DNA of 38,183 nt from Candidatus Woesearchaeota archaeon. GTDB lineage: Archaea; Nanobdellota; Nanobdellia; Woesearchaeales; DSVV01. How positions within the stretch are numbered: the stretch's first letter is position 1; every line of letters starts with the position of its first letter. Under the pieces are notes generated by a model. That model had not been told where the DNA came from. It was given only the letters and a program-made list of their open reading frames with translations, and did no database searches. The stretch spans positions 88,849-127,031 of the forward strand of contig JAGVYH010000001.1 in assembly GCA_018303325.1 (NCBI GenBank), given 5' to 3'. Both the position numbers and the translations under genes were made by a program. Below, piece after piece: positions 4,273 to 33,097 of this stretch.

Positions 4273-4407
4273 CCAAGCTCTTCTGCTTCTTTCATTAGTA
4301 ATCAAACAAACTCCTGCTTTCTTTCAAGTTAATAACTTTCATCAATAATCAAACAAACTCGTCTGCTTCTTCTCACTAATAGTCAAATAGGCTTGTCTGC
4401 TTCTTCC
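4273..4407 (-). repeat. Degenerate tandem copies of the polB 3' end (PIP-box coding)
   Basis: Downstream of the polB stop the last ~33 bp of the gene are repeated. Copy 1 (4376-4407) is the real terminus, K-K-Q-T-S-L-F-D-Y-stop. Copy 2 (4342-4374), in another frame, reads E-K-K-Q-T-S-L-F-D-Y-stop. Copy 3 (4295-4325) carries a 2-nt deletion but still reads R-S-L-F-D-Y-stop. A weaker fourth copy may lie at 4273-4293. Copies 1 and 2 are 34 bp apart. The rest of 4153-4300 shows nothing recognisable. Confidence 0.8.
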
Positions 4408-7400
4408 CGCTGATTAAATCATCAAAGTTTTGGTTAAAAAATACAAGAATGCTGTCAGCAATCGGTTTTAACTGTTTTTCAGTATAATGCTCGTAATCTA
4501 TTTTTGATTTCAGCTTTTGTATTGGTTCTGGACCTTTTTCAGTTAATACATACTCTATTATTGTGCTGTCAATCTTATCCAATAATCTTGCTGCTTTCAC
4601 ATGAGGCGGCGTTGTTTTTGTATATTCATCCACGCCTTTTCTCAGTTCTTTTTTATAGACGAGAAGTTCGTCATATTTTCCTTTTTTCAGGTCTTTGACA
4701 AAATTAATGACATATTCGCTGACCTCTTTATTATTAAATATTCTATTCAACAATTCAACCTGGAAAACTTTTGCAAGTTCTGTCCAGTCCCTTCTTACAA
4801 ATTCCATGCCGACAAAATCAAGTTTTTCTGTTATTTTGCCATGCTCATCTTTCTTGATAATGAGTCCAGCGTATCTTTTTTTCGCGCCTACATCAACGCC
4901 TCTTAATTTGGGCATAATAAACTTTCTGTACACCTTTTCATACTGCAGTTCTAGGAAACTTGGCATTTTATACCATTCCTTGACAGTCTTAGCCCAAAAT
5001 TCAGTTATCTCGTCTTGAATTTTCTTTCCTGTCTTATCTGCATCTTCGAGTGATTTTGTTTTGGTTAACACAAAAATACTATCAGTATCTCCATAAATTA
5101 CTGTATAGCCCATCTCTTCAACTTTTTTCGCTGTTTCCTGCACAATATACCTGCCGTAACTGGTTATTGCATTTGCTATATCAAGATTAAAAAATCTGCA
5201 GAAAGGATTGGCGAGTGCTCCATAGAAAGATTGCCCACATACATTAAATCTGTAATTTCTTCCTGCAACAATTGTATGATATGGTTCTACTTCAACACAA
5301 TAAACATTACGATTATATTTCTCTCTACCAAAAATTCTATATTTACTTAAATATGGTGCCTTTCCTCTATTAGTTGTTATTAATGTTCTATAAATCTTAG
5401 ATTTACCTTTTTCTTCGAAAATATATCCTTTTTTTCCAATATGAATTAATAATCTAATAAAATCCTCGCAAAGGAGCTTGTTTACACTAGAATATCTACG
5501 CCCATCTGCATCACCATCCCCTTTCATTAAAGTATTATGTAAATGTATTAATAGAGAATGATCCAAAGAAAAAACCCACTGAGGAATTCTCTTTTTGTGG
5601 CTCCCATGACCAATTTCTTTTAATAATACTTTAGCAATTATTTCATTTGAGATAGTAACTGTTTTCTTTCCTATGGAATATTTAAACCCCATTCTATCAA
5701 AAAGATTGATAATCTCTTTTCTGTATTTAACATTCTGTTGAGTAATTGTTATTGCATGGGTTATACCTCTCCAAGAAACTTTCCCTTGATAAAATCGAGG
5801 AGTGGAGATATAAATGTGCCCTTCAGAGATGTACCAACCTAAAAATTGGAGCCAATCACTCATAAAATATACTTGTGAGATAGTACTATGTTTTCTATCT
5901 TTCTGTAATCCATGTTGTTTTATTTTATAACTTATACCCAATTCTTTGCATTTCTCTTTTAAATCAAAAATATCTGTTTTTTGCCCTTCTATTTTATTAA
6001 TGCTGGGCAGCCAACCTTTAATTAATGTTCTTGACATCTCCTCAGCTTCTTTCCACAAATAACCATATTCATTATGTATTAGAAATCTATGATTAGGCGT
6101 CACTAAATAATCAACATGTTTTGTGTGAAGTTTAATTAAGTATGAATTATAATTATATTTGTATAACTTGGTAACGGGCATTAATTCCAAGTTCTCTGTT
6201 TCTGGATTAAACGTGTAAACTAATTCTCCTTTTTTTACAGATTTAATTAATTTTATTCCATTTGATGTTAAAATTTGTGTATCGTCTGAGAAACAGTTCA
6301 TACTTATTTTGATGGCATTGCTTGTAATTTTATCTTTCTTTTTCTTTGCCTTGTCCCTCATATCCCATAAATATTGAATTATAGACGGCAGAATGCCTGT
6401 TTTTTTAAAAAATCGTGCTTTGTTAGGCGCAATAATCTCTCCTTTTTCGCCTTTTTTTGTAATTGTATCTGTCCCTGAATCAAAAGAATATGGATCAATA
6501 TTGAATGTCCTGATAATACTTGGATACAGGCTCTTGAAATCAAGAACAATAACATAATCATAAATTCCTGGTGATGATTCACGGACAAAGCCGCCTTTAA
6601 TCCTTTCTCCTCTTTCGCCGTATTTTGAAGTTGGGCATACTAATCCTTGTTTCTTTGTTTCTCTTAAATACATTGAATCTAAACTGGCAATGGATGCGCT
6701 TACTCTGTCAAGCTGCATTCCTGTCAATGTTGACCTGTGAATGTAAAGCCGAACTAATTCTTTTTTTTCAAGGATATCATAAACCAGCTTGGCATCCTCA
6801 AGATTGTAATCAACAACCTTTTGAGGCTCTGTCTTGTAAAGTTTCATGACTTCTGCGCCCCTATTGTCGCCTTTTATGAGTTTGCCCCTTCCAAGAATAC
6901 TTTGCGCTGCTGTTTCAAGCTTGTAATCTTCGAGGGCAATAAATGAGCTTCTCATCATAGCCATACCGTCTAAAACCTGTCTTCCAGCAATATCAGCTGT
7001 GCTCTCCTTAAAAAAATCATGTTGAATCTTTAATGATGATTCCCATTCTGCTCTTCCGAGAACAAAAGGTAGGTTATGTACTCTAAATCTTTCTCGAATA
7101 ACTGCAAAATCAAAATCAATCACGTTCCATCCTGTAATAATGTCAGGATCAAGCTCTTGTATCTTTTCTTTAAAATATTCAAGCATTGCTTTTTCGTTGT
7201 CAAAACACATTGCATTTTTTAGCTTGCCTTTTTTCGTTTCATCATATGTAATCAATACTTTTTTGTAGTTTTCTGTGTATAACGAAATAGAAATAATTTC
7301 TGGAGAAGTTTCATTATCCTCATGTTTATTGCTCTCATTTTTGTTATTTTCAGTTTTGTTAGTCCCTGTTTTATTTGTACAATTCTTATTAATAGCATTC

Positions 7401-7912
7401 TCACTAGTTTCAATATCAATAGAAAGCACATTTAAGTTAGGTTCATATTTGATAGTTTGTGAAACAGGTTCAAAATAAGGATTTTCATAAATCCTATTGA
7501 CAAAATTTCCTTTTTTATATTCTCCTTTTATGGTTGTAACGCCTTTTATCTCGTTGTCAATCATGAACCTGTAAACAAACCTGACATCTGCTTCATAGCA
7601 TTCAATTTTCTCTGCGTCTAATTGCTCCCTTAGCTTTGGAACATCTGAAGGCAGGTTCAGAATAATCTTTACAACTTCTTCATCGTCGAAGTTTTTGATC
7701 TTCTCCCTGCCTGTTTTGTCTGTTTCAAAGGGAATATTAGATTTATCTGCAGTTTTTTTTGCCTTATCAAGTTCGCTCTTCTTAATCCAAAAATACGGCT
7801 GGAAATGATTTATCGTGAGAAAACTTTCTCCATTTTCAAGCCTGCCAAATAAATAAACATATGCTGTATTATTAATTATTCTGTATGTTGGGTATACGAT
7901 GAAGGCTTTCAT
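4376..7912 (-). CDS. polB: Family-B DNA polymerase with in-frame intein
   Basis: 1178-aa precursor; removing the 355-aa intein leaves 823 aa, normal for archaeal PolB. Exonuclease motifs: ExoI D166-I-E, ExoII N-V-I-D-F-D, ExoIII Y-N-L-E-D-A. Polymerase motifs: A D458-F-K-S-L-Y-P-S-I-I, B N-S-F-Y-G (split by the intein), C Y-G-D942-T-D-S. The C-terminus Q-T-S-L-F-D-Y (1172-1178) is a PCNA-interacting PIP box. Just after ExoI, about residues 172-203 form an Asn/Lys/Thr-rich low-complexity insert unusual for the family. Probable replicative or repair polymerase. The upstream promoter region is occupied by a palindrome array whose first hairpin starts 21 bp from the ATG. Confidence 0.97.
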   Translation of the reverse strand: MKAFIVYPTYRIINNTAYVYLFGRLENGESFLTINHFQPYFWIKKSELDKAKKTADKSNIPFETDKTGREKIKNFDDEEVVKIILNLPSDVPKLREQLDAEKIECYEADVRFVYRFMIDNEIKGVTTIKGEYKKGNFVNRIYENPYFEPVSQTIKYEPNLNVLSIDIETSENAINKNCTNKTGTNKTENNKNESNKHEDNETSPEIISISLYTENYKKVLITYDETKKGKLKNAMCFDNEKAMLEYFKEKIQELDPDIITGWNVIDFDFAVIRERFRVHNLPFVLGRAEWESSLKIQHDFFKESTADIAGRQVLDGMAMMRSSFIALEDYKLETAAQSILGRGKLIKGDNRGAEVMKLYKTEPQKVVDYNLEDAKLVYDILEKKELVRLYIHRSTLTGMQLDRVSASIASLDSMYLRETKKQGLVCPTSKYGERGERIKGGFVRESSPGIYDYVIVLDFKSLYPSIIRTFNIDPYSFDSGTDTITKKGEKGEIIAPNKARFFKKTGILPSIIQYLWDMRDKAKKKKDKITSNAIKISMNCFSDDTQILTSNGIKLIKSVKKGELVYTFNPETENLELMPVTKLYKYNYNSYLIKLHTKHVDYLVTPNHRFLIHNEYGYLWKEAEEMSRTLIKGWLPSINKIEGQKTDIFDLKEKCKELGISYKIKQHGLQKDRKHSTISQVYFMSDWLQFLGWYISEGHIYISTPRFYQGKVSWRGITHAITITQQNVKYRKEIINLFDRMGFKYSIGKKTVTISNEIIAKVLLKEIGHGSHKKRIPQWVFSLDHSLLIHLHNTLMKGDGDADGRRYSSVNKLLCEDFIRLLIHIGKKGYIFEEKGKSKIYRTLITTNRGKAPYLSKYRIFGREKYNRNVYCVEVEPYHTIVAGRNYRFNVCGQSFYGALANPFCRFFNLDIANAITSYGRYIVQETAKKVEEMGYTVIYGDTDSIFVLTKTKSLEDADKTGKKIQDEITEFWAKTVKEWYKMPSFLELQYEKVYRKFIMPKLRGVDVGAKKRYAGLIIKKDEHGKITEKLDFVGMEFVRRDWTELAKVFQVELLNRIFNNKEVSEYVINFVKDLKKGKYDELLVYKKELRKGVDEYTKTTPPHVKAARLLDKIDSTIIEYVLTEKGPEPIQKLKSKIDYEHYTEKQLKPIADSILVFFNQNFDDLISGKKQTSLFDY
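5231..6295 (-). other. PolB intein with LAGLIDADG homing endonuclease
   Basis: Residues 540-894 of the PolB precursor. It starts at Cys540 (C-F-S-D-D-T-Q-I-L) directly after N539 of polymerase motif B; the C-extein starts with Ser895 (S-F-Y-G-A-L). Hint block B is T-P-N-H-R-F and block F V-E-P-Y-H-T-I-V-A-G. Two DOD endonuclease motifs are visible, F-L-G-W-Y-I-S-E-G-H and L-M-K-G-D-G-D-A-D-G, both with their acidic residue, so the endonuclease may be active. The C-terminal junction is atypical: Gly-Gln where most inteins have His-Asn. Confidence 0.95.
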
Positions 7913-21828: not shown

Positions 21829-24033
21829 TTACAATTTTTTATGCTTCAGCAGCAACGAGTTTGTCACAACACTTACACTGCTTAGCGCCATTGCTCCGCC
21901 CGCTATTATCGGCGACAAAAGCCAGCCAGTGTAAGGGTATAAAACTCCGGCAGCAATAGGGATACCTAATACATTATAGAACAATGCCCAGAACATGTTC
22001 TGCTTAATCTTTGACATTGTTACCTTGCTCAATTTAATTGCTTTTGGAACATCCATTAAATCATTTCTCATCAGCACAATGTTTCCGGTTTCCATCGCAA
22101 CATCTGTGCCAGAGCCCATTGCTATGCCAATGTCTGCCTGTGCAAGAGCAGGAGCATCATTTATACCATCGCCAATCATTGCAACTTTATATCTTCCATT
22201 TTTCTGAAGTTTTTTTATATAACTGGCTTTATCTTCTGGCATTACCTCTGCAAAAATATTTTCTATACCTGCCTGTTTTGCAATTGCAGATGCGGTTCTT
22301 TTATTGTCTCCAGTCATCATATAAACTTTTAATTTCATATCTTGGAGTTTTTTGACAGCTGCCTTTGAAGTTTCTTTTATAGTATCAGCAACGCCAATCA
22401 GCCCAAGCACATTTTTACTGTCAGAAAGAGCCATCACTGTCTTTCCTTCGCGCTCTAATTTTTCTATTGTAGATTTCAGTTTGTTAAGATTAATTTTAAG
22501 CTTATTTGTTTTCATTAATTTAATGTTCCCAAAGTAAAATAATGTATTCTTAATTTTGGCTTTCACACCCATGCCAGGTATTGCCTTAAAATCTTTTGCA
22601 TTATCAAGAGATATCTTTTTTTCTTTTGCTTTCTTGACAATGGCCTCTGCCAATGGATGCTCTGAGGACTTCTCAATGCTTGCTGCTATTTGCAATAATT
22701 TAAGCTCTGAATTAAGAGCAACTGGAACCAAATTTGTCACTTCAGGAGCGCCTTTAGTAATTGTGCCTGTTTTATCGAACACAACAAACTTAATTTTGTG
22801 TGCTGTTTCCAGAGCATCTCCACCTTTTATGAGTATTCCGTTTTTTGCGCCTTTGCCTGTTCCGACCATTATTGCAGTCGGCGTTGCTAATCCTAACGCA
22901 CATGGACACGCAATAACCAAAACTGCAACTGATGTAATGAGGGCAAAAGAAATGCTTTTGTCAAACATAAAAAACCATGCTGCAAATGTTAATAGCGAGA
23001 TTAATATTACAATGGGCACAAAATAAGCAGAAATAGTATCAGCAAATCTTTGTATCGGTGCTTTTTTGCCCTGCGCGTCTTCAATCATCTTTATTATTCT
23101 CGACAAAGTTGTATTTTCACCAACTTTTGTTGCCTTAAATCTAAAAGAGCCATACTTGTTGATTGTAGCGCTGATAACAGTATCGCCTTTCTTTTTGCTT
23201 ACAGGCATGCTCTCTCCAGTTACCATGCTCTCATCAACAGATGTATCACCTTCAATAATCATGCCGTCAACAGGGATTTTTTCACCTGGCTTAACAATTA
23301 CAATGTCTCCAATAACAACATAGTCGATAGATATCTTCATCTCTTTGCCTTTTCGTATTACTGTCGCTGTTTTTGGAGAAAGTTCCATAAGCTTTTTTAT
23401 TGCCTCGTTTGTTTTTCCTTTAGCAATCGCCTCAAGATATTTGCCTAACACAACAAACGAAATCAATATTGCAGATATTTCAAAATACAGCCCTAATTTT
23501 GGGTTTACAAAGAGTGTATAAATGCTGAAGAAATATGCGGCGCTGGTGCCAATCGCTATCAAAGAATCCATATTCGCTGTTTTATTTCTAAAAGCATGCC
23601 ATGTTCCTTTGTAAAAGCCCCAGCCAACCACGAACTGGACAGGTGTGGACAGCAGCCATAATATGTAACCCTGATAAGGAACCATAATATTCAGCCATTC
23701 AAGCACACTTCCAATTATAAAAACAGGCAAAGAAAAGCTCATGCTTAACAAAAACAGATTTTTTAAATCACGTATTTCTTTTCTTTGGAGCGCTAATTCC
23801 TTGTCAAAGTCTTCTTTTCCCTCGGCAATGCTTGCGCCATAGCCTTTATTTTTTATTGTATCAATTAATTCTTTCTCGCTAACTTGCTTCTCATCATATA
23901 AAATATTTGCTTTTGATGTTGAATAATTTACATTAGCTTCTTTCACACCTTTTGTTTTAAGCAATGCTTTACTGATTATAGTAGCACAGCTGGCGCAGTG
24001 CATGCCTGTTACTTTAATTGTTGTTTTATTCAT
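21829..24033 (-). CDS. copA: Copper-exporting P1B-type ATPase
   Basis: 734 aa. N-terminal HMA domain with G-M-H-C13-A-S-C16, then eight membrane segments, actuator T-G-E-S-M-P, metal-gate C376-P-C378 in the sixth segment, phosphorylation site D420-[13 protein letters not shown] and [10 protein letters not shown]. The last two membrane segments contain Y-N-V-L-G-I-P and [12 protein letters not shown], the Cu(I)-type P1B-1 signatures. Pumps Cu(I)/Ag(I) out of the cell. A close paralogue lies at 27157. Start ATG 24033; its 5' end is tandemly duplicated upstream. Confidence 0.95.
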
Positions 24034-24141: not shown

Positions 24142-24552
24142 TTAAACAGTATCTGTTATCTCAATTACATCTTCTGTTAATTTACATCCTGTAACAAATG
24201 TCAAATCAAAAAACTCTTGTTTTCCGCTGTAGATTTTTCCGTCGATTATCCACGTTGGATATCCTTTTATACCATCTTGGATGCACTTGCTTGCTTGTTT
24301 TTCGCAGTCAACATAATTAATAAATCTGAAAGAGTTCCCAAACAATTCTTTTTGGGCTTTACAATATTTGCACCATTCTGTTCCATACATTACTGCACCT
24401 TTTTCAGTAAGGCATTTCGCAAAAGTGTCATATTTCCATGGCTCGTCTTTGTAAGGCGAAGAATTATTATTAGAACAAGCAGTAATAAATAGTGAGAAAA
24501 CTAAAAAAATGAAAATAAATATAGTCGAGAGATTTTTCCACCTAAACATCAT
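24142..24552 (-). CDS. Thioredoxin-like lipoprotein
   Basis: 136 aa. Hydrophobic N-terminal segment ending in F-I-T-A-C, a lipobox-type cleavage site, then a thioredoxin-like domain: A-V-M-Y-G-T-E-W-C-K-Y-C-K-A-Q-K-E-L-F-G, a second Cys pair (V-D-C...K-C), and the cis-Pro loop G-Y-P-T-W-I-I-D-G-K. The M-Y-G-x-x-W-C-x-x-C block is like the thioredoxin domain of VKOR fusions. Probably an external thiol-disulfide protein, perhaps delivering electrons to metal-binding cysteines of its neighbours. Start ATG 24552 is set by GAGGTG six nt upstream. Confidence 0.85.
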   Translation of the reverse strand: MMFRWKNLSTIFIFIFLVFSLFITACSNNNSSPYKDEPWKYDTFAKCLTEKGAVMYGTEWCKYCKAQKELFGNSFRFINYVDCEKQASKCIQDGIKGYPTWIIDGKIYSGKQEFFDLTFVTGCKLTEDVIEITDTV

Positions 24553-24581
24553 AAACTTCACCTCTTTTTTAAGTTATAGTG

Positions 24582-24744: not shown

Positions 24745-26295
24745 TCAACCGCCGCAGCCACAGCCACCGCCTGAACCGCCACATGTGCCTCCTTTTGGAA
24801 CTTGTACTGTGTTTAATTCTTTTTGTACACTTTGTGTATCTGCTAAGTCAATATTCTCCTTGACAACAAATTTGCCTGTAATCATACCCATCCAGCAGCT
24901 AAAGCTTATAACGCCTTCTTCGTCCGGAGTAAATTCTATTGTCTGCAATCCTGGTTTTATTTTAAAACTTAATCCTAATTTTGGCACTTGAATTGCATTA
25001 TTGCATCCTGTTATTTCTTTGCCATTAATTATCCATTTAACAGGCACACCTTTTTTCAGGACAAATTTATTAGGGCTCCAGCCAGAAGCAAGAACATCCA
25101 TCTTTATTTCTTGATAACCATCAGCATTAGTTCCTGTATTAGTTGCTCCTACATTATTTGTCCCAACATCAGCATCAGTATTGATACCATTATTATTTCC
25201 GTTGCTATTCCCGTTTAAAAAAGGAATATATGAAGAGGATGAAGATGAAAATAATGGTGAAGAAAGTAATGAATCTGCATCATACCCACTTCCTGTCAAT
25301 GCAAGGCCCCTGTTAACCATAATTAATCCAAGCAATAATACAATAACACCTGATGCTTTTAAAATTTTATTAGCCATCTTTGACGAGATAAAACTAGTTA
25401 AATATCCAAATCCTAACATTACTGGCAAAGTACCTAAGCCAAAAATAAATAATAGTTTTGCACCTTCAACAACACTTCCTGTGCCTGCTGCCATAATATA
25501 TATTGCCTGCAAAGGGCCGCATGCAATCATAAGGCCATTAAGCAGTCCAATTATAAAAGGGCTGGAATTTGTATTCTCCTCACCAACCCATTTAGTCAAG
25601 AAACTTGGTGTTGTTAATCTAATCTTTCTTAAGATTGGAAAAAGATTGAGCATGTTTAATCCGAATAATATCAAAAACAAACCAGCGATTATACCTGCAA
25701 CTCCCCTCATTAATGGGGTAAATGTAATAATTGAACCAATCAATCCAAATATTGCACCTATAATTGTATATGAAATTAATTTGCCTACACCGTAAGAAAC
25801 ATGCGACATATGATTAGATCTTCCTTCCTGCGCATTTTTGGTTGTATATGAAACAACAAATCCTCCGCACATTGCAACGCAGTGGAATCCTGTCAATAAA
25901 CCAACAATAAATAATAATCCGTAACTCATATTCTGGCTGATTTGAGGAAGCTGTACTAAGCCATACAATTTTAATAAGAAGTAGCCAATTAATATAATAC
26001 CAACAGCTAATGTTGTAAATCCAAACCAGCTTGAGGTAAACCAGTTTGAGTTAGTATTATTAGTAATGTTGCCTGTTTCATCGAAAATTGCAGCATCATA
26101 GCCATTCTCTTCAATTTTTTCAAGTATCTTGTCAATTGTTGTCTTTGAAGCATCAAATTCTACATGGCCTTTTCCTGTTGAATAATTTACATGAATATGT
26201 TTAACACCATCTACTCTTGATACTTGTTTGTGTATAATCTTCTCACAACTGCCGCAACTCATTCCTTTGACAATAATTGTTTTTTTAATAATCAT
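24745..26295 (-). CDS. HMA - TauE/DsbD-like membrane - cupredoxin fusion protein
   Basis: 516 aa. Residues 1-70: HMA domain with G-M-S-C14-G-S-C17. Then membrane segments, the second with L-L-T-G-F-H-C-V-A-M-C-G-G, the signature of the DsbD_2/SafE group, six or seven in all. After an Asn-rich linker comes a cupredoxin-like domain: G-W-S-P-N-K-F-V-L-K-K-G-V-P-V-K-W-I, G-C-N-N, F-S-C-W-M-G-M. The tail is Gly/Cys-rich (G-G-T-C-G-G...G-C-G-C-G-G). It probably moves Cu(I) or electrons across the membrane. Start ATG 26295 follows GAGGGA; the frame stays open to 26517 through a repeat tract. Confidence 0.85.
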   Translation of the reverse strand: MIIKKTIIVKGMSCGSCEKIIHKQVSRVDGVKHIHVNYSTGKGHVEFDASKTTIDKILEKIEENGYDAAIFDETGNITNNTNSNWFTSSWFGFTTLAVGIILIGYFLLKLYGLVQLPQISQNMSYGLLFIVGLLTGFHCVAMCGGFVVSYTTKNAQEGRSNHMSHVSYGVGKLISYTIIGAIFGLIGSIITFTPLMRGVAGIIAGLFLILFGLNMLNLFPILRKIRLTTPSFLTKWVGEENTNSSPFIIGLLNGLMIACGPLQAIYIMAAGTGSVVEGAKLLFIFGLGTLPVMLGFGYLTSFISSKMANKILKASGVIVLLLGLIMVNRGLALTGSGYDADSLLSSPLFSSSSSSYIPFLNGNSNGNNNGINTDADVGTNNVGATNTGTNADGYQEIKMDVLASGWSPNKFVLKKGVPVKWIINGKEITGCNNAIQVPKLGLSFKIKPGLQTIEFTPDEEGVISFSCWMGMITGKFVVKENIDLADTQSVQKELNTVQVPKGGTCGGSGGGCGCGG

Positions 26296-26349
26296 AGGAC
26301 TTCCCTCTTTTTGAATTTCATTGGTATTATTTATATTATCTTCTTTCAT

Positions 26350-26517
26350 ATTATCATCTTCTATTTTATCTATTGTTCCATGTTCTTTCATATTATCATC
26401 TTCTATTTTATCTATTGTTCCATGTTCCTTCATATTATCATCTTCTATTTTATCTATTGTTCCATGTTCTTTCATATTATCATCTTCTATTTTATCTATT
26501 GTTCTATGTTCTTTCAT
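26350..26517 (-). repeat. Four-copy 42-bp minisatellite
   Basis: Four near-identical 42-bp units in tandem (26476-26517, 26434-26475, 26392-26433, 26350-26391). Read in frame with the fusion protein downstream they encode M-K-E-H-G-T-I-D-K-I-E-D-D-N (first copy has Arg for Gly). Either a repetitive 5' leader or an N-terminal extension whose length can vary by 14 residues per unit. The GAGGGA site before ATG 26295 favours the leader. Confidence 0.9.
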
Positions 26518-26555
26518 ATTATCTGGTTTTACATACTCTTCTGCTTTTCTTCTGA

Positions 26556-26591
26556 CATTTATCCAATCCCATACATTTATCCAACTCCATA
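26556..26591 (-). repeat. 18-bp tandem duplication of the HMA gene 3' end
   Basis: Units 26574-26591 (contains the real stop) and 26556-26573 (immediately downstream, two mismatches). Both encode Y-G-V/I-G-stop. Same kind of event as at the 3' end of polB. Confidence 0.8.
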
Positions 26592-26780
26592 CCCTTGACT
26601 TTGTATTGATTGTTTTATTTTATCCAAATTTAATTTTGACTCATCAAATACAATCACAGCTTTTCCTGTCTTAAAATCAATATTGCATTCTTTTACACCT
26701 AAATCAGACAGTTCGTCTTTAATTAACATCTCGCAACTTTTGCAGTGCATTCCTGTTATGGTTAAATTAATTTTTTTCAT
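26577..26780 (-). CDS. copZ: Free-standing HMA metallochaperone
   Basis: 67 aa, one complete beta-alpha-beta-beta-alpha-beta heavy-metal-associated domain: I-N-L-T-I-T-G-M-H-C-K-S-C-E-M-L-I...G-K-A-V-I-V-F-D-E-S...S-Q-G-Y-G-V-G. CopZ-like proteins carry Cu(I) to the N-terminal domains of CopA pumps, and the two pumps and the TauE-type fusion flanking it all carry matching domains. Start ATG 26780 follows AAGGTGGA. The name is by analogy; metal specificity is not proved. Confidence 0.9.
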   Translation of the reverse strand: MKKINLTITGMHCKSCEMLIKDELSDLGVKECNIDFKTGKAVIVFDESKLNLDKIKQSIQSQGYGVG

Positions 26781-26870
26781 GTTTTCCACCTTTTCTTAAT
26801 TCAGTATTATCATCTTTTATTTTTTTATTTAACGCTTTATTCATAATAATTTACTTTTAATGTTTCAAGT

Positions 26871-27011
26871 TTAGCGTTTTTTTTCTTTTTTATTAGCGTG
26901 TTGAATAATAAAATAAACCAATACACCGATTAAAAGTATCAGCAACAAACTATTCAAAAATCCATAAAAACTAAAGATGTTTGTGCCCATTGGACAATTT
27001 GCATATACCAT
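26871..27011 (-). CDS. Small single-pass membrane protein
   Basis: 46 aa: a short N-terminus with N-C-P-M-G-T-N, one hydrophobic segment (L-N-S-L-L-L-I-L-L-I-G-V-L-V-Y-F-I-I) and a basic tail K-K-E-K-K-R. Start ATG 27011 has the strong site GGAGGT at ideal spacing, which makes it a real gene despite its size. No family recognised. Its place between the HMA chaperone and the second pump, and the Cys-Pro-Met motif, suggest an accessory metal-binding or regulatory subunit. Confidence 0.7.
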   Translation of the reverse strand: MVYANCPMGTNIFSFYGFLNSLLLILLIGVLVYFIIQHANKKEKKR

Positions 27012-27156
27012 TTTGACCTCCAAAATCACATATCTATCGTACAGTTGAGAGTTAATCAGCATTGAAACTGCTTATTAACCTTTGTTTCTATCCAAATTTA
27101 TATCTCGTGGATTATGTATAAATGGACATTAATAACAAAAGTCCACCGCTCTAATT

Positions 27157-29391
27157 TCATATTTTCGTTCTCTTCATCAGCAAAGTATTAACAACAACAC
27201 TTACACTGCTTAGGGCCATTGCCCCACCTGCAATTATCGGTGACAAAAGCCAGCCAGTGTATGGATAAAGCAAACCTGCTGCGATTGGTATGCCTAATGA
27301 ATTGTAAAACAAAGCCCAAAACATGTTTTGCTTTATCTTTCTTATTGTAATTTTGCTTAATTTAATTGCGCGGACAACATCATAAGTATTGTTCTTCATT
27401 AAAACAACATTGCCTGTTTCCATTGCAACATCTGTGCCTGAACCAATTGCTATGCCAATATCTGCTTGTGCAAGCGCAGGAGCGTCATTAATTCCATCGC
27501 CAACCATTGCAACCTTTCTTTTGTTTCGTTGAAGCTCTTTTATTTTATTAGCCTTATCTTGTGGCAATACTTCTGCTATAACATGATTTATGCCAAGCTG
27601 TTTTGCAATTGCATTTGCAGTTCTTTTATTATCGCCTGTAAGCATATAAACACGGATTTTATTTTCCTGCAATTTTTTTACAGCTCTGATGGAATCTTCT
27701 CTAGGAGTATCTGCTATAGCCAATATCCCTTCTATTTTTTTGTTCAAACTAACAACTACAACTGTTTTCCCGTCTTCTTCCATCTCTTTGATAGGATTAT
27801 CTAATTTGCTAAAATTAATGTTTAATTTTCGCATATATTCTGGCTTGCCAACAATAAGCTTTTTGTTCTTATAAATACCTTCAACACCATGACCAGGTAT
27901 TGCTTTAAAGTTTTTTACCTGATCTAATTTAATCTTTTTTTCAGCTGCATTTGCAACAATTGCCTGCGCTAAAGGATGCTCGCTGTATTGCTCAATGCTT
28001 GCAGCCAGTTTTATAAGCTCTTCTTCAGTAATTGTATTATGTGCAGGGATAAGATTTGTAACTTTAGGCTTCCCTATTGTCAATGTGCCTGTTTTATCGA
28101 ATACAACTGCATAAAGTTTATGCGCTGTTTCAAGAGCGTCACCGCCTTTTATCAAAATTCCATTTTCTGCACCTTTACCTGTGCCAACCATTATCGCTGT
28201 AGGGGTTGCTAATCCTAAAGCACACGGACATGCAATTACCAGAACAGAAACTGCAATAATCAGGGCAAATGAAAATTCCATTCCCATTACAAAATACCAT
28301 ACAAGAAAAGATAAAATAGCGATTATAATTACAACAGGAACAAAATACGCTGAAATCTGATCAGCAAACCTTTGTATAGGTGCTTTTTTGCCTTGCGCAT
28401 CTTCTATAAGTTTTACTATTTGAGCTAGTGTTGTATTTGCACCAACCTTTGTTGCTTTGAATTTGAATGCGCCATGCTTGTTAATTGTTGCACCGGTGAC
28501 AGCATCTCCCACTTTCTTCTCAACAGGCATGCTTTCTCCAGTAATCATGCTTTCATCAACAGAAGAATTACCTTCAATAATCACTCCATCAACAGGAACC
28601 TTTTCTCCTGGCTTGACAATAACTATGTCTCCGACAACAACATCATCAACTTTTATTTTCATTTCTTTGCCATCTCTGATAACTATCGCAAGTTTTGGGG
28701 AAAGATTCATTAATTTCTTTATTGCTTCGCTTGTTTTTCCTTTAGCAATTGCTTCCAAATATCTGCCAAGAATTACAAAAGTGATAAGAACTGCTGCTGC
28801 TTCAAAATATTGAGCCTGCATAGGGTCAAAAAATACCACATATACACTGAAGAAATATGCTGCGCTTGTTCCTAAAGCAATTAATGTATCCATATTTGCA
28901 GTCTTATTCTTCAATGCGCCCCATGCGCTTTTATATATTCCTGCGCCAACAATAAATTGCACAGGCGTAGCAAGAATCAGTAAAATATAATCCCTATACG
29001 GAACCATAATATCAAGCCACATAAATACCATACCAATCAAAAAAGCAGGAAACGCAAATAATGTACTAAAGATAAGCAGATTCCTTAATTGTTTAATTTC
29101 TTTTTTCCTTTTTTGTGTTTCATGGTCAATGTTGCTTTTTTCATTAGTAATTATTTTTGAAGTGTAGCCTAAGCTGTTCACAGCGTCAATAATCTTGTTT
29201 TCTGAAATGGCTGAAGCATCAAATTCAATTGAAGCTTTTTCAGTTGCAAAGTTCACGTTGCAATATTTCACACCGTCCAGCTTTTGCAGTTTTTTCGTTA
29301 TTAAAGTAACACAACTTTGGCAATGCATGCCGGTAATATCTAAATTAAGTTTTTTTGGAGGTTTTCCGTCGTCATTTCTTTCATTTATCAT
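27157..29391 (-). CDS. copA: Copper-exporting P1B-type ATPase (second copy)
   Basis: 744 aa. Same architecture as the pump at 21829: HMA domain G-M-H-C-Q-S-C, T-G-E-S-M-P, C-P-C in [37 protein letters not shown], and [12 protein letters not shown] at the end. The two differ throughout, so this is an old duplication or a separate acquisition; one may export copper and the other load a cuproprotein. Start ATG 29391 follows AAGGTGGA. The gap 27012-27156 contains a degenerate remnant of the GTGGAC palindrome (around 27123-27147). Confidence 0.95.
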
Positions 29392-29507
29392 ATTTTCCAC
29401 CTTGTTCTCATTTAAAATTTCTTCAAAAGTTCATTCAAAACTTCATTAAAATGTTTATCTAAGTATCAACAATTATTCATACATTGTTGATTCATACAAA
29501 TAATAGT

Positions 29508-30554
29508 TTACCCAAAATTAGGGCCGTTAACTATGTCTGCCTTGTATGTGTTAAACACATCTAAAGATAGTACATCTTCTTTTGATAACATCGCGGGATT
29601 GTAAGTTACATCAAATAAGTTAGGAAAACTAAATTTGACTGTTTTTATGCCACTTAATGATTTTATTTCTTGTGAGATTAAAGAAGCATGGCCAGGGCAA
29701 GGAATACCTACTTTTAATCTAATAGTTGACAATTCATCAGCGTTAGTTAGTTGATTATTTAGTGCTTGTTCAACAGGAACACCTACAACCGCGCCAGTTA
29801 TCTGCGGATTTAATTGCGGATTTGACAGGTTTAGTTGTTGTTGCTGTAATCCTGATTGCTGCGCTCCATAATCTGCTGATACAGTAGGAATATTAACTAA
29901 TAAAGGAAATACAACCATGAACAGGAAAAGATTTATGCCTAAAGTTAAAGAATACATTGTTAAAAGGTATTTCCATTTAAACTTTAGTCCATCTAATGAC
30001 CATAAACCATGCTTCTTAAGATAGATTATTGCGCTAATTGTAGTGAAAACAAAAGATAATAATATTAACACGTAAAATATATAGGCATTTAACAAAAATG
30101 GCTTAAGGAATGATGTTACTGCTGTAACACCTAATATAGTAAATAGAATAAAAGCTATGCAACCAGTATGTGGAACTAAACCGTAAAAGATACTAGCAAA
30201 AATACTATTATTACTATTACTATTACTATTATTTTCGTTAGGTTTTAGGGGTTTACTATTTTCTAGCGTTACTGTATTAATTTGATTTGAGTTTACGGTG
30301 TTATTTTGATCACTATTACTTCTTGAACTTCTTGAACCGCCACAACATGAAGATATTTGTTCTTGAATTTCTGTTTGTTCAGTTGGTTTATCTGATTCAA
30401 TCATTGCCTTTGTTTCAACAAATTCTTCTGATTCAACCCTCTCTTCAACAATCTCATAAGGATTTGCAGTGTTATTCAAACTATTGTTCTCAATGGACTG
30501 TTTCATCTTTTCATTATTTTGTGCATTATTTTGTGGTTTTGTTAAGTTTTCCAT
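29508..30554 (-). CDS. Membrane protein with CPGH HMA-like C-terminal domain
   Basis: 348 aa. Residues 1-115 are Asn/Glu-rich and disordered with one S-C-C-G-G (69-73). Three hydrophobic blocks follow (about 118-150, 155-178, 195-222), the first beginning F-Y-G-L-V-P-H-T-G-C. The C-terminal ~70 residues look like an HMA fold (T-I-R-L-K-V-G-I-P-C286-P-G-H289...G-I-K-T-V-K-F-S-F...F-D-V-T-Y-N-P) in which C-x-x-C has become C-P-G-H. I do not recognise the family as a whole; a metal-binding membrane transporter or sensor partner is likely. Start ATG 30554 sits ~25 bp from a TATA box, so the message is probably leaderless. Confidence 0.75.
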   Translation of the reverse strand: MENLTKPQNNAQNNEKMKQSIENNSLNNTANPYEIVEERVESEEFVETKAMIESDKPTEQTEIQEQISSCCGGSRSSRSNSDQNNTVNSNQINTVTLENSKPLKPNENNSNSNSNNSIFASIFYGLVPHTGCIAFILFTILGVTAVTSFLKPFLLNAYIFYVLILLSFVFTTISAIIYLKKHGLWSLDGLKFKWKYLLTMYSLTLGINLFLFMVVFPLLVNIPTVSADYGAQQSGLQQQQLNLSNPQLNPQITGAVVGVPVEQALNNQLTNADELSTIRLKVGIPCPGHASLISQEIKSLSGIKTVKFSFPNLFDVTYNPAMLSKEDVLSLDVFNTYKADIVNGPNFG

Positions 30555-30573
30555 ACTAAGCTAGAATTCTGAA

Positions 30574-30608
30574 ACAGTATATTAACCATTGTATGAAACT
30601 AGTTTCAT
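30574..30608 (-). promoter_or_regulatory. Promoter with 16-bp palindrome
   Basis: Perfect palindrome ATGAAACTAGTTTCAT at 30593-30608, directly upstream of the TATA-like GGTTAATATACTG (30574-30586) that serves the gene at 30554. An 11-of-12 match to GAAACTAGTTTC also lies inside the neighbouring regulator gene near 30767-30778. A plausible binding site for the membrane-bound winged-helix protein encoded next door. Confidence 0.6.
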
Positions 30609-30665
30609 GGGTGATTAAAACACAAATTATTAAGAAAAAGAATAAATTACACAGGAAACTGGTTA

Positions 30666-31166
30666 CTAATGCTTTAAAATCACTACATTAGTCATACCGC
30701 GTCTTTTTCTTTCAATGATATCCATTCCTTCTAATTTATCCAGAACACGTGTAACTTTAACTTTGGTGAAACTAGTTTTATCAACAATATCAGACTGAAA
30801 AATTGTGCCTTTTGCTTCAATTACCTTTTCAAGAATAACCTTTTCATCATTATTTAGCTTTTCAAGAATGTTTTTGTAATTATCTATAGTAACGTCTTTT
30901 TGTGCAATTTGTTGGGTTATTGTTTTTATCTCTATTCTTTCATCTTTGCCGAAGAATATCAAATAAAGACCAATCATAACAACAACAACCATTATTCCTA
31001 TACCAACATGTGTCTGAAAACTAATTGTTCCCCACATTGGGCACGCAGTGCCATGTGTACAGGAAGTTTCAACAATCTTTGACAAAGCACGATTAAAAGA
31101 GAATATAATATAACTTATTACTAAAGCTATACCCAAAATAATAACTCCAACAGCTCTATTTTTCAT
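30666..31166 (-). CDS. Membrane-bound winged-helix protein, candidate metal sensor
   Basis: 166 aa. Two membrane segments (about 5-24 and 55-72) flank a ~30-residue loop, E-T-S-C36-T-H38-G-T-A-C42-P-M44-W-G...Q-T-H53, rich in soft-metal ligands. A short coiled stretch (80-105) leads to a MarR-like winged helix (107-166: E-K-V-I-L-E-K-V-I-E-A-K-G...Q-S-D-I-V-D-K-T-S-F-T-K-V-K-V-T-R-V-L-D-K-L, I-E-R-K-R-R-G). The positive residues put the winged helix in the cytoplasm and the Cys/His/Met loop outside. Inferred to sense extracellular copper or a related metal and control the island downstream. Confidence 0.75.
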   Translation of the reverse strand: MKNRAVGVIILGIALVISYIIFSFNRALSKIVETSCTHGTACPMWGTISFQTHVGIGIMVVVVMIGLYLIFFGKDERIEIKTITQQIAQKDVTIDNYKNILEKLNNDEKVILEKVIEAKGTIFQSDIVDKTSFTKVKVTRVLDKLEGMDIIERKRRGMTNVVILKH

Positions 31167-31227
31167 ATAATCATTAATATAAAAATGATTGTTTAAAAAT
31201 ATTGTGAAAAATAACGTTTCTTACTGA

Positions 31228-31325
31228 TATGTAATAAGTCCGCAACTTTTGTTTATAAACAAAACCTTGATTTTACCTAAACCGCGGCTAAAACGAGCTT
31301 CATTTCAAGGTCGACTTATTACATA
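31228..31325. repeat. Nested palindromes between divergent genes
   Basis: Outer arms TATGTAATAAGTC (31228-31240) / GACTTATTACATA (31313-31325). Inside are the perfect 18-bp palindrome TTTTGTTTATAAACAAAA (31247-31264) and CCTTGA (31265-31270) / TCAAGG (31305-31310). It lies in the 260-bp gap between the sensor gene and purF; the purF TATA box is further right, about 31365-31375. Confidence 0.82.
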
Positions 31326-31426
31326 CTCTTACTAACTTTTTTTTATTTTTTTATTTATATACTCTTATATATAGTTTAAGGTGTCTAAAACTATTTAATT
31401 AAAACATAAAGCACTTTGATATTAAC

Positions 31427-33097
31427 ATGTGCGGCATAATAGGAATGATATCTAACGGCAAATCAGTTTCTCGCGAAGTTGTGCAGGGATTAGTAGCTTT
31501 ACAGCATCGCGGAAGAGATTCTTCTGGAATAATTACTACAAATTGGAATGGAAGCGAATTTGGCTCAATAATAAGAGGTGTTGGACCTGCAAAAGAAGTG
31601 TTCAAAGATGTTAATCTTGATGAAATTGTAGCAAGGGCAGCAATTGGTCATGACCGTTATTCCACGATTGGCAGCAATTTGAGCGGAGATGCTCAGCCAC
31701 TTTACAAAAGCAAGACTGGAACAGCCATTGCCCACAACGGCCATATTGCAAATTATCTTAAATTAAAAGAAGAATTAAAGCAAAGAAAAAGCTACCACTT
31801 AGCTACACAATGTGATGCAGAGGCATTATTATGTGCTCTTGTCCAGAATATGATTGATTTAAAATCATATGAAGCAGTTGACACGCCGCAGTTTGTAAAC
31901 GAAAAATTCTTTCCTGCTGTGAGAGCAATCCTTGACCATGGAGCTAAGTATGGTGTTACCGGCGCTTATTCTGTCATTGGGTTAAGTATTGGCCATGGCA
32001 TTTTCGCTTTAAAAGATCCGCATGGAACAAGGCCGTTAATTTTTGCACAGCGAAGAGAACAAAGGAAATTAAGAGAACGAGGAGAACTAATAGAGAAAAT
32101 AGAACAAGAAAAATTAATAGAGGGAAGAGAACAAAGAGAACTAGTAGGGCAAAGAGATAGAAAAAAATTAACTGGACAAAGAGAAGGAAGAGAACTAATA
32201 GAGCGAATAAATGAAAGAGAAGATGACGACGAGGTTATATACGCATTTGCATCTGAATCAATTGCACTGCCCAAATTAAGGGGATTTGATAAATATGAAG
32301 AGCTTGGTCCTGGAGAAGCAGTATTTATTGATTTTAATATGAATGTATACAAACAAACAATTTTTTCATTGGGCCAAAAGATATGCAAATTCGAGCCTGT
32401 TTATTTTGCAAAAGGCGTTTCATATTTTAATGGTAAAGTTATTGAAGACATAAGATATGAGCTTGGCTTGGAAGCTGCTGATGAGTTTAGTTATCTTAAA
32501 GACAGAATAGACAATATACTTGCTGTGCCAAAAACAGCTATTCGCGCAGCAGAAGCTGTTGCAAAGGCATGGGACAAGCCATTTGGAGGTATAGAAGCTG
32601 CTGACGACGGAATAAGAAGTTTTCTAGGTGGAACACAGACAGAAAGAAATCTTATTGCCTACTTTAAATTCTCATACAATCCACATCGCATAGAAGGCAA
32701 AAGTGTAGGTGTTATAGATGATTCTGTAGTGAGGGGAACAATCTCCAAGTCTTTAGTTAGAGCACTTTATGAATTAGGCGCAAAAGAAGTTCATTTCATT
32801 TCAGTTTACCCGCCATTTATTGGAATTTGCGCAGGAGGTATTGATGTTCCTGAAGAAAAAGAATTATTATTAAATGAAAATACTCCTGAAGCTATTGAAA
32901 TAGCAAGGCAAACAATTAATGCAACAACCTTAAATTATTTATCCCGAGACAGATTGCTTAAAACACTTGGTTTGACAGAAGACACTGTTTGCAGTGGATG
33001 CACAAAAAAAGAATATCCTTTTGATTTAGGCGATTATTACAGATTCCAAGAACAGAGAAGAAGTGAAAGGTTAGAGATGGAAAGACTCATATCGTAA
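31427..33097 (+). CDS. purF: Amidophosphoribosyltransferase
   Basis: 556 aa. Catalyses the first step of purine synthesis, PRPP + Gln to phosphoribosylamine. Mature-type N-terminus with nucleophile Cys2 (M-C-G-I-I-G), H-R-G-R-D-S-S-G, and PRPP loop V-I-D-D-S-V-V-R-G-T. Four cysteines correspond to the [4Fe-4S] ligands of the Bacillus enzyme: I-C-K-F-E-P-V-Y-F, G-I-C-A-G-G-I-D, and C-S-G-C. A charged insert at residues ~208-268 (Arg/Glu/Gln/Leu repeats such as R-E-Q-R-E-L) interrupts the glutaminase domain and is not normal for PurF. It could form a coiled coil. Start is certain from Cys2. Confidence 0.95.
   Translation: MCGIIGMISNGKSVSREVVQGLVALQHRGRDSSGIITTNWNGSEFGSIIRGVGPAKEVFKDVNLDEIVARAAIGHDRYSTIGSNLSGDAQPLYKSKTGTAIAHNGHIANYLKLKEELKQRKSYHLATQCDAEALLCALVQNMIDLKSYEAVDTPQFVNEKFFPAVRAILDHGAKYGVTGAYSVIGLSIGHGIFALKDPHGTRPLIFAQRREQRKLRERGELIEKIEQEKLIEGREQRELVGQRDRKKLTGQREGRELIERINEREDDDEVIYAFASESIALPKLRGFDKYEELGPGEAVFIDFNMNVYKQTIFSLGQKICKFEPVYFAKGVSYFNGKVIEDIRYELGLEAADEFSYLKDRIDNILAVPKTAIRAAEAVAKAWDKPFGGIEAADDGIRSFLGGTQTERNLIAYFKFSYNPHRIEGKSVGVIDDSVVRGTISKSLVRALYELGAKEVHFISVYPPFIGICAGGIDVPEEKELLLNENTPEAIEIARQTINATTLNYLSRDRLLKTLGLTEDTVCSGCTKKEYPFDLGDYYRFQEQRRSERLEMERLIS

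Follow-up and report, generated by a model that had tools for sequence, protein, structure and literature searches.

How might a single archaeal protein read a metal outside its membrane and act directly on DNA? The question is raised by an open reading frame at 30666-31166 of the window (the whole stretch of 38,183 nucleotides analysed here), for which a sequence-only reading had put forward a Cys/His/Met loop between two membrane segments, a C-terminal winged helix and, as DNA site, a palindrome ahead of the next gene. The account we favour, with a probability of roughly 0.6, is that this protein, anchored in the membrane, works as a one-component copper sensor that represses the adjoining copper-export operon by blocking its TATA box and is released by metal.

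Predicted architecture of the regulator

30666..31166, minus strand: regulator open reading frame, 166 aa, ATG start (open reading frame call, Pfam, AlphaFold2, homologues)
31086..31154, minus strand: predicted transmembrane helix 1, about residues 5-27 (hydropathy and AlphaFold2 helix 3-35)
31035..31061, minus strand: putative metal site C36-T-H38-G-T-A-C42-P-M44 in the inter-helix loop (C-[ST]-H-G-x-x-C-P-M in 11 of 11 close homologues)
30945..31031, minus strand: predicted transmembrane helix 2, about residues 46-74 (hydropathy and AlphaFold2 helix 43-72)
30675..30887, minus strand: predicted winged helix, residues 94-164, with recognition helix and wing TKVKVTRVLDKLEG...ERKRRGMTN

Mean hydropathy exceeds 1.6 over residues 2-29 and 46-76 of the regulator (19-residue windows), and an AlphaFold2 model made from an alignment of 30 homologues predicts helices at 3-35 and 43-72, a floppy linker at residues 79-88 and a winged helix at 94-164, with a mean pLDDT of 83.5. 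The elements of this last domain lie at 106-117 and 124-131, followed by the recognition helix (135-147) and two wing strands (151-156 and 159-164). Residues 106-164 match DUF7343 (PF24034) in Pfam with E=1.2e-11 (44.7 bits against a cut-off of 27.6), and all 76 members of an alignment of wider relatives fall in this family. The reading frame is at the coordinates given for it, and hydropathy, model and DUF7343 match bear out the two membrane segments and the C-terminal winged helix that had been proposed.

The fold resembles that of MarR and ArsR-type regulators in the PDB (Foldseek E about 2e-3), and the sole family near E=0.001 in a PDB sequence search was a MarR regulator (E=0.0012). Membership in the MarR family itself (PF01047) was rejected, the score of 22.8 bits lying below the cut-off of 24.6, which leaves kinship at the level of the fold only. 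Lrs14/Sta1 membership likewise failed the curated NCBIfam cut-offs (22.5 against 90 and 18.8 against 80 bits), and CopR/TRASH membership was discarded, there being no Lrp or TRASH match in Pfam up to E=1. With a predicted transmembrane region and a predicted DNA-binding domain in one chain, the regulator meets the sequence criteria for transmembrane transcription regulators (TTRs), its membrane location and DNA binding being inferred, and a membrane-anchored one-component sensor of this broad kind is the best reading of its predicted architecture.

Conservation of the inter-helix loop

In the turn between the two helices a serine precedes C36, giving S-C36-T-H38-G-T-A-C42-P-M44. The pattern C-[ST]-H-G-x-x-C-P-M is kept in all 11 other full-length close homologues (L003-L013, 51-69% identity), a set obtained by full-length protein search of 99 related genomes in which the loop was not a selection criterion. 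Two further collections, a set of related loci chosen partly by loop motif and a 30-row alignment chosen for it, were excluded as evidence of loop conservation in favour of this unselected set. The sequence-only reading had named five ligands, C36, H38, C42, M44 and H53, and had offered their loss among homologues as a refutation. All five are at the positions claimed and between hydrophobic stretches, and four survive the conservation test; in the close homologues H53 is replaced by N, S, Y or W, so that this residue was dropped from the proposed site. Among 76 wider relatives encoded beside or near the operator described below, C36 is invariant and C42-P43 nearly so, while the His and Met positions vary by subgroup. 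If conserved soft-metal ligands in the sensor segment are taken as the criterion for a metal sensor, C36, H38, C42 and M44 meet it, metal binding itself being inferred.

A predicted operator that brackets the TATA box

30593..30608, no strand assigned: 16-bp palindrome, operator dyad 1, with core GAAACTAGTTTC at 30595-30606
30577..30584, minus strand: TATA-like box of the next gene, within the operator (from the logo)
30571..30575, minus strand: third half-site GTTTC, exactly 19 nt beyond the palindrome, past the TATA box and before the start codon

The sequence ATGAAACTAGTTTCAT at 30593-30608 is a perfect 16-bp palindrome and is followed, as had been claimed, by the TATA-like box (30577-30584) of the next gene, whose ATG is at 30554. 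As a description of the DNA site the dyad was correct but incomplete, since the operator is longer: a fixed 36 bp, GAAACYRGTTTC-N19-GTTTC, in which the N19 over the TATA box and the third GTTTC had been missed. TGAAACNNGTTTCA has a single copy in the window, which is also the only one in the 1.97-Mb assembly, and near-matches with at most two mismatches are not above chance in the window (6 against 3.6 expected), so that the significance of the palindrome comes from its conservation across genomes. All 11 complete close homologous loci have GAAACYRGTTTC, then exactly 19 nt, then GTTTC, after the regulator gene. The logo of 120 distinct sites reads TGAAACTAGTTTCA...TtATAAGgtGTTTCA, with the TATA box inside N19 and start codons clustering 15-16 nt past the last GTTTC, from which we infer that operator-led transcripts are probably leaderless. 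A degenerate dyad lies over the TATA box, with a centre spacing of 24 bp.

A near-copy of the palindrome is present within the coding region, at 30767-30780. One-mismatch palindrome sites elsewhere in the host genome are without the third half-site, and a wider regulon there is not claimed. No Rfam family was found in 29000-31600.

Pairing of regulator and operator across genomes

Among 81 regulators picked by protein alone, a perfect palindrome lies within 300 nt downstream in 51 and within 300 nt upstream in one, and the next GTTTC follows at a spacing of 19 nt in 41 of 47 loci picked in the same way. Of the 93 perfect sites in the fetched regions, 51 follow a same-strand regulator gene at a distance of no more than 150 nt. 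When up to one mismatch was tolerated, 114 of 352 genomes from the order carried the operator pattern; when none was, 78 of 371 genomes sampled from the phylum carried it, and the backwards control pattern had no match in those 371.

A profile of the winged helix divides the 352 genomes into 112 with a strong match (E below 1e-24) and 240 with a weak match or none. The strong match is present in 85 of the 88 genomes that carry a perfect operator, and the operator in only 3 of the 240 others (Fisher p about 3e-53, uncorrected for phylogeny). Shared descent inflates this value; the genomes span nearly 90 families. The perfect operator is absent from 27 of the 112 strong-regulator genomes, 16 of which have a one-mismatch site. 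Across genomes, regulator and palindrome co-occur almost perfectly. Absence of the palindrome upstream of orthologous genes had been named as a second refutation, and the prediction withstood it: the palindrome precedes the orthologous copper genes across many archaeal lineages.

The adjoining copper gene cluster

29508..30554, minus strand: first target gene, MerT-like membrane protein with an HMA-like domain at its C-terminus; its ATG follows the operator by 16 nt
27157..29400, minus strand: Cu+-type P1B ATPase (HMA, CPC, DKTGT)
26871-27062, minus strand: small open reading frame, 63 aa, between the first ATPase and the CopZ-like gene
26577..26789, minus strand: CopZ-like HMA chaperone
24745..26517, minus strand: HMA - DsbD_2/SafE - cupredoxin fusion protein
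24142..24561, minus strand: thioredoxin-like protein (WCKYC)
21829..24033, minus strand: second Cu+-type P1B ATPase, CPC-type

The ATPases bear the CPC and YN/MxxSS motifs expected of Cu+/Ag+ pumps, and the two in this cluster are the only CPC-type copper ATPases of the assembly, other P-type matches being weak (about 30% identity). A relative of the WCKYC thioredoxin-like protein is itself a direct operator target in another locus (L122). HMA or Cu ATPase genes follow the regulator in 10 of 11 close homologous loci, and in 66 of 80 loci fetched independently from named genomes the same strand encodes CopA, HMA or SafE. The related loci, in a set partly selected by loop, carry the genome labels Woesearchaeota, Pacearchaeota, Micrarchaeota, Aenigmatarchaeota, Altiarchaeota, Nanohaloarchaea and Methanofastidiosum, among others.

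Two smaller features of the cluster may be recorded here. The 63-aa frame at 26871-27062 (minus strand) has an N-C-P-M-G motif before one transmembrane helix, an echo of the CPM of the sensor loop. At 26341-26523 a 42-bp tandem repeat (4.4 copies, 97%) encodes MKEHGTIDKIEDDN at the N-terminus of the HMA-DsbD_2-cupredoxin protein.

Loop classes and targets in the wider family

Among the first genes behind the operator (n=95) are those for HMA (18), DUF411 (12), FtrD-like (6), DsbD_2 (4), cupredoxin (4) and DsbA/thioredoxin-like (3) proteins. Loops of class A (CxHGxxCxM) pair with HMA, CopA and FtrD genes, those of class B (C..CPxH) with DUF411 and an unknown IYGxEL family, and those of class C (GECxH..CP[YF]) with other, mostly unnamed genes, and the operator is identical across the three classes. 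Members of a membrane-anchored family with the motif IPKGxPxIYGxELGVSYDDVS and no Pfam match (first gene behind the operator in L152, L155, L114 and others) are often direct targets of class B regulators. We lean slightly towards reading these proteins as a family of modular minimal extracellular sensors in DPANN archaea, in which the winged helix and the 36-bp TATA-bracketing operator would be constant across lineages and loop and targets variable. If this holds, no earlier transmembrane one-component regulator would have been shown to sense an external metal and to act directly on DNA.

Three two-TM DUF7343 relatives (L019, L023, L024) differ both in the loop, which is CxCxxxC, and in the recognition helix (KSKLSI...KKGKTNQ). 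This operator is missing from their genomes, and Cu ATPase genes lie near L049 and L051; a second operator type may therefore exist.

A proposed mechanism and its alternatives

Architecture, loop conservation, regulator-operator pairing, fixed operator geometry and copper gene context are read directly from sequence, and on them the following model is built. The two transmembrane helices would leave the winged helix in the cytoplasm and expose the C-[ST]-H-G-x-x-C-P-M loop on the outer side of the membrane, a topology inferred from the requirement that the winged helix be cytoplasmic and from the number of helices. The winged helix, assumed to dimerise and to bind DNA, would occupy GAAACTAGTTTC, with a second dimer on the site that overlaps the TATA box and terminates at the third GTTTC, and the bound dimers would keep TBP/TFB from the promoter of the adjoining copper-export operon. 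Outside the membrane, binding of Cu(I), or Ag(I), by C36, H38, C42 and M44 would then move the helical hairpin, weaken DNA binding and de-repress the operon; release by metal is again an inference. Judged from the target genes, Cu(I) is most likely the metal sensed, because a Cys2-His-Met site fits Cu(I) and the adjoining pumps are of Cu+ type. A block of TBP/TFB is suggested by the third half-site between TATA box and start codon, which is where a repressor is expected, together with the degenerate dyad over the TATA box; the regulator is thus inferred to be probably a repressor rather than an activator.

The sign of regulation could also be the opposite. Dyad 1 immediately precedes the BRE/TATA region, where a palindrome could also serve activation by recruiting TBP/TFB once copper is bound, and other membrane one-component regulators such as ArnR do activate (PMC6396743). 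We nevertheless regard an activator as doubtful, since the equally conserved third half-site, at fixed spacing between TATA box and start codon, would hinder initiation. The signal, too, may be another one. The same regulator and operator could respond to extracytoplasmic thiol redox through a C36-C42 disulfide formed or lost, a possibility left by the wider family, where the two cysteines are the only nearly universal loop residues and His and Met vary. Several direct targets, being DsbA/thioredoxin-like, DsbD_2 or Fe-S/FtrD-like, are in keeping with this, and the DsbA/thioredoxin-like and FtrD-like ones, not being copper exporters, count against the copper model. A disulfide switch would, however, need neither H38 nor M44, which are as invariant as the cysteines in the close family, and HMA and DUF411 are the two commonest first-target domains, with Cu+ ATPase and HMA genes dominating the neighbourhoods; a redox signal is in our view unlikely.

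Sensing of another soft metal (Ag, Hg) or of a metalloid appears more improbable again: the first target gene resembles MerT/MerP proteins and Cys-rich sites also bind Hg and Ag, but the pump motifs are those of Cu+/Ag+ ATPases and no mercuric reductase was found among the window proteins searched. Finally, two-TM winged-helix proteins are common in the order, with a relative in 78 of 99 genomes, and loop residues and palindrome might have met by coincidence in a membrane-bound housekeeping regulator with unrelated targets. This can hardly be entertained, as it is already contradicted by the downstream palindromes, the operator-regulator co-occurrence with its extreme Fisher value, the backwards control, and the recurrence of loop motif and copper neighbours across lineages. 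We thus retain the metal-released copper-sensing repressor as the preferred reading.

Relation to known systems

TTRs are widespread and include ToxR, CadC, TcpP and ArnR (PMC10269533); like the regulator, they join transmembrane segment(s) and a cytoplasmic DNA-binding domain in one polypeptide, without kinase or response regulator. The table of characterised TTRs in that paper holds no metal-sensing regulator. The present protein differs from them in its sensor, a loop of about 18 residues, in its C-terminal DUF7343/MarR-like DNA-binding domain and in an operator that brackets the TATA box. ArnR/ArnR1 of Sulfolobus acidocaldarius, the characterised archaeal case of a membrane-bound one-component regulator, likewise has inverted-repeat boxes, but it has an N-terminal HTH, HAMP and sensor domains and two C-terminal transmembrane segments, activates archaellum genes and, unlike the loop described here, has no metal ligands described (PMC6396743). 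The archaeal copper regulator CopR of Pyrococcus furiosus, with which the CopT/TRASH regulators are grouped here, lies, as in the present locus, beside copA in a cop cluster; it is an Lrp-family protein with a TRASH domain that forms octamers, and the available portion of the source reports no membrane segments (PMC7830388).

The DNA-binding domain of the regulator belongs with the DUF7343 (PF24034)/MarR winged helices, and DUF7343 has no assigned function. To our knowledge, the known MarR and ArsR metal regulators are soluble. CsoR, CopY and CueR respond to copper in the cytoplasm; CusS detects its signal outside it, and CusRS needs two proteins. All four systems control copper export (several are reviewed in PMC10141476), and their folds are unrelated to that of the regulator. 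Our literature search, largely without subscription journals, found no paper on DUF7343 and none joining such membrane regulators to copper; nor did we find an earlier description of what this protein is predicted to be, a single-protein extracellular copper sensor with a tiny Cys/His/Cys/Met loop.

The locus offers a concrete regulator-operator pair, predicted from sequence with unusual certainty, for a very large group of small and mostly uncultured archaea with hardly any known regulon, and it suggests that one protein of 166 residues, with no kinase, may suffice to sense extracytoplasmic copper. The operator is a ready search handle for the regulon in hundreds of genomes, and the loop variants form a natural series on which residues set signal specificity.

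Other features of the window

Between the regulator and a PurF-like gene, at 31228-31325, lies a MITE-like 98-bp repeat with 13-bp terminal inverted repeats (TATGTAATAAGTC) and a fold z of -4.1, further copies of which, 94-95% identical, are found on two other contigs of the genome. At 32071-32203, 54-bp repeats encode a charged insert within the PurF-like amidotransferase gene. A family B DNA polymerase is encoded at 4376-7912 (minus strand), with an apparent intein before the conserved SFYGALANP segment.
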